64,000 nucleotides of DNA. It comes from Cyanobacterium stanieri PCC 7202 (GTDB lineage Bacteria; Cyanobacteriota; Cyanobacteriia; Cyanobacteriales; Cyanobacteriaceae). How positions within the stretch are numbered: the stretch's first letter is position 1; every line of letters begins with the position of its first letter. The translations under genes and the position numbers were made by a program. This document shows, piece after piece, positions 12,900 to 17,255 of this stretch. The stretch spans positions 186,001 to 250,000 of the forward strand of contig CP003940.1 in NCBI GenBank assembly GCA_000317655.1. The letters are read 5' to 3'. The notes beneath the pieces were generated by a model. The model was given only the letters and a program-made list of their open reading frames with translations, had not been told where the DNA came from and made no database searches.

Positions 12900-12960
12900 T
12901 ATCAGGTTTGGTAAAGCAGGGTTTTGATCCCCCCTGCCTTAATAAGGGGGAAATAAATCG
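12900..12960. repeat. Dispersed repeat with GGTTTTGATCCCCCCTxxC and TTAATAAGGGGGAAAT
   Basis: The rbsK-CHAT divergent gap includes a CCCCCCTGCCTTAATAAGGGGG element with a partly self-complementary core. A second copy lies between ndhD3 and ndhF3 (about 33250-33305), extended by AATTGAAA. It is intergenic in both places. Confidence 0.7.
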
Positions 12961-13022: not shown

Positions 13023-16000
13023 ATGATGGTAAAAACATGGGGTTTGATGGTTTCTCTGTTGTCAGGATTGGTAATCTTCCATCCTCGTCTGGTTTATAGT
13101 CAAGAAATAATAATCGATCGCACCACAGACACTAATATTACGGTAGATGGTAACAATATCTTGATCAATGGTCAAACCCTGTCGGGGGATGGCAAAAATT
13201 TATTTCATAGCTTCCAAGAATTTGGCTTAACTAACGAGCAAATCGCCACCTTTCTCACCAACCCCAACATTCAAAATATCCTCACCCGCATTACGGGGGG
13301 TAATCCTTCGCAAATAAATGGTTTGTTGCAGGTAGTGGGGGGCAACTCTAACCTGTTTTTGATGAATCCTGCGGGGATTATTTTTGGGCAGGGGGCAAGT
13401 TTGAATGTACCTGCGGACTTTAGCGCTACCACCGCCACGGGTATCGGTTTTGGCAATGGGATTTTTAGTGCTGTGGGTGCCAATGAGTATCAAAATTTGT
13501 GGGGTAATCCCCATAGTTTTATTTTCAATCAAGATAACATCGGTAGTATTATCAATCAGGGAGATTTAACCCTTGGGGCCGGGCAAAATCTGAGCCTGAT
13601 GGGGGGCAATGTCATTAATGCAGGTGTCATAGAAACCGCAGGGGGCAGAATTAATATACAGGCGGTGGAAGGCACTTCGAGGATAAAAATAACCCCTGAA
13701 GGTAGTTTCTTGAGTTTAGAGCTTGATTTACCTACCGATGAGAGAGGAAATTTGTTAGGGTTCAGTCCCCAAGATTTGCCCTCTTTGCTCACAGGAAAAG
13801 ATGTGGATGGGGTGAGGGTAGATAATGGACAAGTGAGGGTAAATGAGAGTTTAATTCCCCAAGGGCAAGGAAGTGCGATCGCCTCGGGAACCATCTCCAC
13901 CAACAACAGTGAAGGTATGGGGGGAGATATAACCATCTTAGGAAAAAATGTAGGGGCGATCGCCTCTACCATAACCGCCGACGGACAAACAGGGGGCGGT
14001 AACATCAGAATAGGGGGAGATATGATGGGGCAAGGTACTATCCCCAACGCCTCCGTTACCTACATCAGCCCAGATTCAAACATCTCTGCCAATGCCACCA
14101 CCCAAGGAGATGGGGGTAAAATTATCATCTTTGCCCAAGAGTTCGCCCGTATCCATGGCAACCTCAGCGCCACAGGAGGCACCATGGCAGGGGATGGGGG
14201 ATTCATTGAAACCAGCGGTTTGAGAAGTTTTAGTATTACCTCAGTTCCCAATATTCGAGCTTTCAACGGACAAGGGGGAGAATGGTTAATAGATCCCTTT
14301 GATATTACCATCACTAACGATGCCGATTCCGACGTTTCAGGCATCAATCCTTTTAATCCCTTTGTCGCCGAGGATGATAATGCCGTTTTACCCGTCACAC
14401 TAATTCAAACTGCCTTGAGTGACGGCGATGTCACCATTTCCACAGGTATAGGAGGAAGTCAGACAGGGAATATCACTTGGAATGATGATGCCATTCTCTT
14501 TTATTCTCTTTCAGCAAGTAGAACCCTTACCCTCAACGCCGCAGGGAATATAAATTTTAATGGGGGAATTGAGCCATTTTCCGTATCAGAACCCTTGAGT
14601 TTAATCTTTAATAGCAACACCAACAATAACGGTATCGGCAACATTAATATTAATACTGGTTCATCCCTTGCCCTCAGCGGTGGTTCCATAACTTTGGACG
14701 GTGTCAATGTCACTAGCAAGATAGATTTATTTACCGATGGGGGAGACATTACCATCAAAGCTACCAAACAAATTAATACCCAAATCCTTGATACTTCAGG
14801 AAGTCAATTTGCAGGGGATATAAAACTAAGTGCAGGGGGCAATATCACCACCTTGGATGTGGTGGCAGATACTCCTTCTTTTCAAAGTAATGCAGGTAAT
14901 ATTTCCCTGAATTCTGGTAATGACATAAAGACGGGCAATATTAGCACTCAACAAACGGATGGATTGGGTAATTCTGGCACAATCACTCTTCAGGGATTTA
15001 GAAACATTCAAACAGGAGATATTTTATCCAGTACATTTGATGGCAATGCAGGAGGAATAACCATCAAAGCATCCCAAGGCACCATTTCCACCGCAACTAT
15101 CTTATCCTCTGGTTCCGAGAGTTCAGGTAATATCAACTTAAACGCCAATAATGCCGTTACCACCAGTTCCATCGCATCCAATGCCAGTGGCAATACGGGT
15201 AACATTAATATCAATAGTCAAAATAGTATTAACGTTGGTGATTTATCCTCCGTTTCCTTTGGGGGAGGGAAGGCAGGAAATATAACTCTCAATGCACCTG
15301 ATGGTATTGTGGTTGATGCCATTGATGCTAGTTCCTTTGATGGTGTTGCAGGAAATATCGCAGTTACCACAGGCTCTACCTTCAGAGTATTAGAAACCAC
15401 CAGCTTTGATCCTGATAGTAGTATTAGAACCGTTGGGGTAAGTGGTACTGGGGGAAATATTTCCATTAAATGGAGTAATCCAGTACCAGAAGATTTTAGT
15501 TTTGATGTGAATGTCGGTGCTTTAATTGCGGATTCAAGCAATGGCACAAGGGGAACTATTAATGCAGGATTGGCAAGGATTCCAGAAGTTGGCAACTCCC
15601 CTGAGATTATTACTGAACCTATCATTGTGGTAGGAATTGCAGGGGGTTCGATAGATGTTTCTTTTGATATTGAAATACCTGAACCTGAGCCTGAACCTGA
15701 GCCTGAACCGGAACCGGAACCTGAACCTGAGCCTGAGCCTGAACCCGAACCTGAACCTGAGCCTGAGCCTGAACCCGAACCCGAACCTGAGCCTGAACCG
15801 GAACCGGAACCCGAACCTGAGCCTGAACCCATACCTCTTGATCCTCGGGATGAGTTACTTTCCTTTGTATTACAATCCAATGATCCTGATCCGATTAATA
15901 ATCAAACTTCCTATAATCCAACCATCGGCGAAAACATACCCATTGATGGGCAAGAGAGTTTATTAATTCTCAGTATTGATCAAGCCAAGGATATATTAAG

Positions 16001-17255
16001 CACCATTGAAAATAGGACGGGGGTAAAAAGTGGATTTATTTATGTCAGTTTTACTCCTCCCAATTATCAACCCTCTAGTTTGGATGAGGATATGGCAAGA
16101 CGGGAAGCTCAAAAAACCAATGAGTTTGGCAGGGTGGTTGATGACATTCCCAATGTCTCTCCTGTGGTAGGACTAGATAGGGTAGAAGATACTCAATTGG
16201 ATATTTTAATTATTACCGCAGAGGGTGAGCCTTTACGGGTGGTGGTGCCTATAACTCGGGAGGAGGTTACTAATTCGGTTAATAATTTATGGTCAAATGT
16301 TGCTGATATTTTTAATTTGAGTGACGACTACAGGGCGGATGCTACCCAGATTTATCAATGGTTGATAGAGCCTTTGGAGGGGTTATTGGTTGAGCGAGAA
16401 ATTGAAAATTTAGTTTTCATGTTGCCCAATGAGATGCGTTTTTTGCCTTTAGCGGTTTTATATGATCAAAAAAGTGAGGAATATCTAGTCGAAAAGTATA
16501 GTCTTTCCCTTACTCCTAGTATTAATCTTAATGATAATGAATATAGTCCTGTAGGCGATCGCAGCTTATTAGCCATGGGTGCATCAACCTTTGAAGATCA
16601 ATCCATTACCCCCCTACCTGCGGCAGGAGTAGAATTACCAACCATCTCAAGGGTATGGCAGGGAGATGATAATCTCAGACAGGATTTATTTGCCAGTGAT
16701 AGCTTTACCCTCGATAATATTCGCCGAAATTTAAACGAAAACACCCATGGTATCGTCCACTTTGGCACCCATGGAGAATTTAACACCAGAGAAATCGATA
16801 GTAGTTTTATTCAACTCTATAATGATCGCCTCAACTTGAAGGAATTACGCAATTTAGGACTCAAAAATTTGGGAGTAGAATTATTAGTCCTCAGTGCCTG
16901 TAATACAGCCTTTGGCAATGAAATGGCGGAACTAGGATTCGCAGGTTTAGCAGTACAAGCAGGGGTAAAAACAGCCTTGGGTAGTGTATGGCAAGTGAGC
17001 GATACAGGTACCCTTGCCTTAATGACTAATTTTTATAGTCAATTAAGAAACCACACCATCAAAGCCGAAGCCTTACGTCAAGCACAATTGAGTTTACTAA
17101 AGGGAGAAACCAGAAAAAGTGATGATGGAGATACAATTATCACTCCCAATCTTGATATTTCCCTAATGGAATTACCCGAAATATCTCGTAAGTCTGAGGA
17201 CTTTTCCCATCCTTTTTATTGGGCACCTTTTACAATGATCGGTAGTCCTTGGTAA
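13023..17255 (+). CDS. Secreted TPS-domain/CHAT-protease fusion with Glu-Pro hinge
   Basis: This 1410-residue protein has a signal peptide (cleaved near VYSQ, residue 26), then a haemagglutination-activity/TPS domain (about 30-160, with [15 protein letters not shown]) that in other proteins directs export through a TpsB pore. Glycine/asparagine-rich beta-helix repeats fill about 160-870. A perfect Glu-Pro run spans 887-936. The C-terminal 340 residues are a CHAT (caspase-like) peptidase domain with the dyad His1250 (HFGTHGEF) and Cys1293 (LSACNTAFG). No TpsB pore gene is in the window. Cyanobacteria carry several such fusions; substrate and role are unknown. It is divergent from rbsK. Confidence 0.88.
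15681..15830 (+). repeat. Hexanucleotide tandem repeat encoding 25 Glu-Pro dipeptides
   Basis: Twenty-five GAR-CCN units alternate among GAACCT, GAGCCT, GAACCG and GAACCC. The six-base unit keeps the reading frame after slippage, so the hinge length can change without inactivating the CHAT protein. The opposite strand is open as Ser-Gly, a shadow frame only. Confidence 0.95.

Follow-up and report, generated by a model that had tools for sequence, protein, structure and literature searches.

Type Vb exoproteins of the TpsA kind, such as EtpA, FhaB and HMW1, carry a leader, an NPxG-type two-partner secretion (TPS) domain and a beta-helix, and a TpsB protein of the ShlB/FhaC family is encoded in the same genome. 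Bacterial CHAT and other caspase-like proteases have been discussed largely as intracellular enzymes of cell death and defence. The gene analysed here brings both together. It lies in a window of 64,000 nucleotides from Cyanobacterium stanieri PCC 7202 (contig CP003940.1, positions 186,001 to 250,000 of the forward strand) and encodes a protein of 1410 residues, called TPS-CHAT in the following, in which a Sec-type leader is followed by a TPS domain, a beta-helix rod, a Glu-Pro linker and a CHAT domain. TPS-CHAT shares with EtpA, FhaB and HMW1 all the features named above; unlike them, it ends in a caspase-like protease, and its TpsB gene is unlinked. The reading that we favour, at about even chances and as judged from sequence, is that TPS-CHAT is a TpsA-type exoprotein with an intact extracytoplasmic CHAT protease, which would be periplasmic at first and would cut a protein of the pathway or of the envelope. 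Such proteins form a widespread, large and apparently little-studied variant of the TpsA proteins. The gene has the following features, given in positions of the window.

13023-17255, forward strand: TPS-CHAT gene, an open reading frame (ORF) encoding 1410 amino acids
13023-13100, forward strand: signal peptide, residues 1-26 (leader called by a heuristic; cleavage after VYS judged by eye)
13104-13709, forward strand: TPS secretion domain, residues 28-229 (PF05860, E 3e-41)
13710-15602, forward strand: beta-helix passenger, residues ~230-860 with an approximate end (EtpA-like by sequence and predicted fold)
15677-15829, forward strand: hexanucleotide tandem repeat of 25.5 copies, coding for the Glu-Pro linker
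15975-16334, forward strand: conserved segment ahead of the Pfam CHAT match, residues 985-1104 (alignment A1; part of the same predicted fold)
16335-17246, forward strand: CHAT protease domain, residues 1105-1408 (PF12770, E 1.8e-61)
16770-16772, forward strand: His1250, catalytic histidine (kept in 45/46 aligned CHATs)
16899-16901, forward strand: Cys1293, catalytic cysteine and sole cysteine of the protein (kept in 46/46)
17001-17003, forward strand: Asp1327 (in WQVSD), candidate acidic S1-pocket residue (invariant column D343 of alignment A1)

An exported architecture of the haemagglutinin type had been proposed in the original prediction, which was made from the letters of the window, and the domain matches agree with it. 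The leader obtained a score of 2.55, which is signal-like by a home-made heuristic only, and it is directly followed by the TPS domain (Pfam). Residues 61-138 match adhes_NPXG, the filamentous-haemagglutinin N-terminal (NPXG) family (NCBIfam, E 1.5e-23). Residues 10-733 resemble the EtpA adhesin in sequence (E 8e-27), and EtpA was also the top fold match of the passenger model (E 1e-15, template modelling score 0.40 on the query), although this model is of middling confidence (mean predicted local distance difference test score, pLDDT, 70.5). The Glu-Pro segment that had been pointed out earlier was found as a run of ~54 residues between rod and protease.

The CHAT dyad of His1250 and Cys1293, previously described as apparently complete, was found within a match that covers positions 2-289 of the 289 in the Pfam profile. 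The structural model of residues 985-1410 is of high confidence (pLDDT 90.1, predicted template modelling score 0.92). Its best fold match was TPR-CHAT/Csx29 (Z 24.7, with 21.2-24.7 over the listed entries), and separase reached a best Z of 23.5; both matches cover model residues 1-426 and thus include the segment 985-1104. Further matches were the gingipains RgpB and Kgp (Z 17.3-17.9), SAVED-CHAT (Z 17.4, 175 residues aligned) and DdvA (Z 16.8-17.1). All of these came from fold comparison; when the CHAT profile was run against the sequences of solved structures, nothing relevant was returned. Csx29, which belongs to Craspase (type III-E CRISPR), also shares the His/Cys dyad. By the titles of its entries it partners the RNA-guided Cas7-11, whereas TPS-CHAT has a leader and no TPR. 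Since Pfam detects no TPR in the protein, a TPR-CHAT of the defence type was ruled out as its identity. Separase has the protease fold in common with TPS-CHAT but is a eukaryotic cohesin protease. The gingipains are cysteine proteases of related fold that are secreted, but they belong to another family and take another secretion route. A PADLOC match to the anti-phage defence model BovA (E 3.6e-9) is restricted to residues 1234-1401, within the CHAT domain. Among cyanobacterial CHAT proteins, HetF is a putative protease whose function is abolished by mutation of the active site (PMC8406250; this and the other statements with PMC numbers are based on extracts of the papers). HetF acts as a divisome and heterocyst factor, and the extract of PMC8406250 mentions no TPS domain for it. 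CHAT domains have been treated in other contexts as well (PMC9895726, PMC12691664, PMC10907252).

Conservation of the dyad in relatives is nearly complete. Among 46 aligned CHATs the catalytic cysteine was present in all and the histidine in 45, the only miss being a partial match to the TPR-CHAT of the same genome, whose full sequence has HLATHG. Two sequences that fail a simple pattern for the dyad, L111 and L242, carry it nevertheless. Alignment A1 comprises 44 C-termini and has 28 invariant columns, and the CHAT end of the 43 relatives is 33-82% identical to that of the window protein; as the sequences were chosen by their C-terminus, relatives with other ends fall outside this sample. Cysteine is otherwise rare. 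From the TPS start onward, 54 of the 57,399 residues of 33 relatives are cysteines, whereas 183 control ORFs taken from the retrieved loci contain 714 cysteines among 87,454 residues. A further 35 cysteines of the relatives are located ahead of the TPS domain, in leaders or in ORF starts that are placed too far upstream, which gives 89 for the whole ORFs. The catalytic cysteine is present in all 33 and is the only one from the TPS start onward in 23 of them. That this cysteine is kept while others are rare is hard to explain without catalysis, and the CHAT protease looks to be under selection for it. The invariant Asp1327 lies in a WxVSD motif, and in separase a residue of this type contributes an acidic S1 pocket; by analogy, TPS-CHAT may cleave after basic residues. 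Orthocaspases cut after positively charged residues (PMC6426788).

With E <= 1e-20 as the threshold, 125 of 386 genomes in the phylum have a match to the last 450 residues of TPS-CHAT. From a score-sorted list of the best CHAT matches, 40 loci from 38 genomes were chosen by hand, hence not at random. They contain 43 CHAT ORFs of at least 300 amino acids, 33 of which are fused to a TPS domain according to the TPS sequence of the window alone, and 35 (at 35 of the 40 loci) according to a profile built from alignment A2. All 34 TPS segments that were aligned matched the PF05860 family. In a second sample, the best 80 named loci of another collection, 11 were cut at the 5′ side; of the 69 uncut loci, 56 carry the fusion, 7 encode TPS in a different ORF of the locus and 6 have no TPS ORF. 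The named records are all cyanobacterial by title except for one metagenome-assembled genome of Chloroflexaceae (L111). The domain order for which a survey of paralogues had been suggested is therefore found in most of the sampled loci. Public annotation goes no further than naming the domains (‘CHAT domain-containing protein’, ‘filamentous hemagglutinin N-terminal domain-containing protein’), and among the matches listed from the open-licence literature, judged by titles and the starts of abstracts, no paper on TPS-CHAT proteins was found. The stretch ahead of CHAT is rich in proline in 17 of 33 relatives, versus 1 of 121 passenger stretches.

Some of these loci differ in layout. At L047 4085-9411 (G076:C1), an out-of-frame change in a very long Glu-Pro hexanucleotide repeat splits the TPS ORF from the CHAT ORF, and in L046, from the same genus, the locus is a single ORF. 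The split could stem from drift, phase variation or an assembly error. Phase variation by way of the repeat was dropped as a proposal because the frame change may be an assembly error; only variation in length is claimed. In L052, L057, L065 and L070, a segment ahead of the TPS domain resembles by eye the N-terminus of a family-2 glycosyltransferase (clearest in L052, L057 and L065), which may be a real fusion or an over-long ORF start.

The original prediction had noted that the window holds no TpsB gene and had proposed to look for one in the genome. The only ShlB match of the genome indeed lies outside the window, at G000:C1:484856-485815, unlinked to the TPS-CHAT gene and with a ShlB-type POTRA. 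The genome has one TPS match, which is TPS-CHAT itself, and three CHAT matches. In relatives, TpsB adjoins the TPS-CHAT gene at 13 of the 40 loci, and five of these 13 are among the eight loci from the same genus and its sister genera. A quickly computed, midpoint-rooted tree of 69 TpsBs places the TpsB of C. stanieri with those five (Shimodaira-Hasegawa-like approximate likelihood ratio test, SH-aLRT, 98). This grouping makes it the likely candidate for the partner of TPS-CHAT, and rearrangement would explain its unlinked place. Additionally, all 85 genomes of the same class that have a TPS match, including those of the same genus, family and order, also have a ShlB match with E 1.5e-16 or better (by eye). 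In the reverse direction the co-occurrence is inexact, for example in G270. The small genomes of family f31, outside this class, have TPS and ShlB matches, yet none of them belongs to the 125 in which the CHAT end was matched.

Association of CHAT with two-partner secretion was also observed when TpsB served as the starting point. One TpsB, the first listed in a score-sorted list, was taken from each of 55 genomes together with a stretch of ~6.5 kb on each side (shorter at contig ends). A CHAT was found at 12 of the 55 loci (3 fused, 9 separate), compared with 2.48 expected from the genome-wide CHAT counts (Poisson 1.2e-5). The stretch contained a TPS gene at 19 loci, 11 of which had a CHAT, compared with 1 of the 36 loci without a TPS gene (Fisher 6e-6). 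Exclusion of the fused loci left nine CHAT loci versus 2.48 expected (Poisson 1e-3), with a CHAT at 8 of 16 loci with TPS and at 1 of 36 without (Fisher 1.3e-4). Seven of the eight scoreable ORFs among the nine separate CHATs have a leader. In the TpsB tree, all nine TpsBs of separate loci occupy one part, and the other part contains 15 of the 16 from fused loci; the sixteenth (L069) is a very long branch. The link between CHAT and TPS thus seems to be present in two lineages of TpsB.

A tblastn search of a plasmid collection returned separate, neighbouring genes for CHAT, TpsB and TpsA in a Caballeronia grimmiae plasmid and in Nostoc sp. UHCC 0302. Gloeothece citriformis PCC 7424 has the same trio with a small gene in between and a gene of the BamA/TamA family in place of ShlB. 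All three CHATs have N-terminal leaders by eye, and their TPR repeats are clear in Caballeronia and Nostoc and weak in Gloeothece. In Nostoc sp. TCL26-01, the genes come in the order TPS, TPR and CHAT, with no annotated TpsB in the stretch. The row of CHAT, TpsB and TpsA in the Caballeronia plasmid (L189 3732-13954) is located between type VI secretion genes. At L210 2201-7597 (G172:C38), TPS domain and TpsB (ShlB-type) are encoded together in a single ORF of 1798 amino acids, and a leader-bearing CHAT follows; both partners of the secretion system are thus merged into one chain. Outside the window, in C. stanieri itself, a stand-alone CHAT gene overlaps a COP23 gene of the same orientation (L076 6712-8771), and COP23 also occurs within the TPS-CHAT stretches of L040, L042 and L043. 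As a partner, COP23 was rejected: a CHAT lay within 1.5 kb at 0 of 30 COP23 loci (tblastn, two CHAT queries), so that the link is at most one at the level of families.

The leader heuristic was also applied to cyanobacterial CHATs in general, using 36 ORFs recovered from 40 sampled loci. Leaders were called for 25 of the 36, compared with 114 of 465 controls (Fisher 7e-8), and for 22 of 32 when four TPS fusions were removed (Fisher 5e-7). Only 40 of 58 TPS ORFs are positive by this score, as are 45 of the 73 in a TpsB set that includes COP23; 25 of 36 is therefore about the rate expected if export were general. In C. stanieri, TPS-CHAT and the TPR-CHAT score as leader-bearing; the stand-alone CHAT of L076 fails the score but shows a hydrophobic N-terminal stretch by eye. 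Because most of the sampled CHATs have predicted leaders, the premise of CHAT as a cytoplasmic enzyme is weakened, and an exported CHAT does not stand out as the exception that had been assumed. In the sampled cyanobacteria most CHATs look like exported proteins, and a tie to two-partner secretion recurs among them. Provided that these CHATs are active, they would make up an extensive and unexplored repertoire of caspase-like proteases in the periplasm and on the surface of many cyanobacteria, with a bearing on surface processing, colony behaviour and the reported caspase-like activity in these organisms.

From the domain order, dyad, predicted fold, conservation, candidate TpsB and enrichment of CHAT at TpsB/TpsA loci we infer the following course for TPS-CHAT. 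Sec would export the protein, the TPS domain would dock on the single TpsB of the genome, and the beta-helix rod would then pass through to the cell surface. Placed behind its Pro-rich linker, CHAT would most likely remain, initially at least, on the side of TpsB that faces the periplasm, in the manner of the C-terminal prodomain of FhaB, which is periplasmic (PMC8263021). Its target there could be its own rod or linker, whose cleavage would free the rod from the cell, or else a different protein of the envelope. A separate CHAT that has only a Sec-type leader and is encoded beside TpsB and TpsA should be periplasmic. In the fused protein, CHAT sits at the end that leaves last; together with the parallel to FhaB and the Pro-rich stretches, this favours an initially periplasmic CHAT. 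As a tentative and rather improbable extension, TpsA, TpsB and exported CHAT may constitute a conserved envelope module, linked in cis or in trans, that works as a switch spanning the outer membrane: an event at the rod outside would unleash a periplasmic ‘caspase’, with the Glu-Pro or other Pro-rich stretch as a brake or spacer within the TpsB channel.

Several points weigh against a periplasmic CHAT tied to two-partner secretion. TpsA proteins can be secreted whole, and the CHAT domain could then end up fully extracellular. Sixteen of the 33 relatives lack a Pro-rich stretch ahead of CHAT. No TPS gene was present in the stretch at 36 of the 55 sampled TpsB loci, and 35 of these 36 had no CHAT. 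The samples were drawn from score-sorted lists and are not random. CHAT genes cluster, which makes the Poisson expectation too simple and the Poisson and Fisher probabilities rough. Finally, the separate CHATs pair with another TpsB lineage and may be uninformative on the fused kind.

Two specific forms of the favoured reading differ in the substrate. In one, which is possible but on the doubtful side, the exported CHAT cuts its own polypeptide and frees the beta-helix as a self-releasing surface rod. This would be a built-in version of the proteases that mature FhaB, of which there are several (PMC8263021), or of the caspase-type releasing peptidases known in secreted polymorphic toxins (PMC3482391), and it fits the tie of CHAT to TpsA in cis or in trans. 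However, the Glu-Pro run contains no basic residue, so a CHAT of trypsin-like specificity would have to cut elsewhere. In the other, which is similarly uncertain and hardly a safe guess, the rod acts as a sensor of something outside and thereby switches on a CHAT in the periplasm, which would cleave an envelope regulator or a stress target. The split systems, in which a leader-bearing CHAT has no TPS domain, are consistent with such outside-in signalling, and so is the fold shared with DdvA, a transmembrane anti-sigma factor known here by the title of its structure entry alone; on the other hand, no ligand, substrate or regulated promoter was seen. Of six papers listed in a literature search, none was about DdvA. 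A purely structural or binding role of CHAT, with no proteolysis, is very unlikely. To our knowledge no activity is recorded for any member found, but the dyad is kept, and the cysteine counts given above speak for catalysis.

Action on neighbours had also been suggested for TPS-CHAT, and in our data it found no support. In this case the rod would present CHAT as a toxic protease to neighbours, prey or grazers, which we regard as improbable. Polymorphic toxins with caspase domains likewise combine a secreted rod with a caspase-like domain, and the C-terminal caspase domains among them are held to be likely toxins (PMC3482391). Some prokaryotic caspase homologs have been proposed to be extracellular, and extracellular, fratricidal metacaspases have been suggested (PMC3501461). 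Unlike in polymorphic toxins, the C-terminal protease of TPS-CHAT is conserved rather than variable among the 43 relatives, and no toxin lies beyond it. No immunity gene was seen in the flanking genes or in the 241-base gap downstream, which has no same-strand ORF longer than 27 amino acids. The separate CHATs that have no TPS domain also argue against an effector carried by the rod.

The neighbours of the TPS-CHAT gene encode a PfkB kinase and a PAS-GGDEF-EAL protein on the other strand. Promoter- and terminator-like sites were not more frequent than in shuffled sequence. Upstream of the gene, at window positions 12929-12950, lies the short near-palindromic stretch CCCCCTGCCTTAATAAGGGGG; stretches of this kind are common between cyanobacterial genes.

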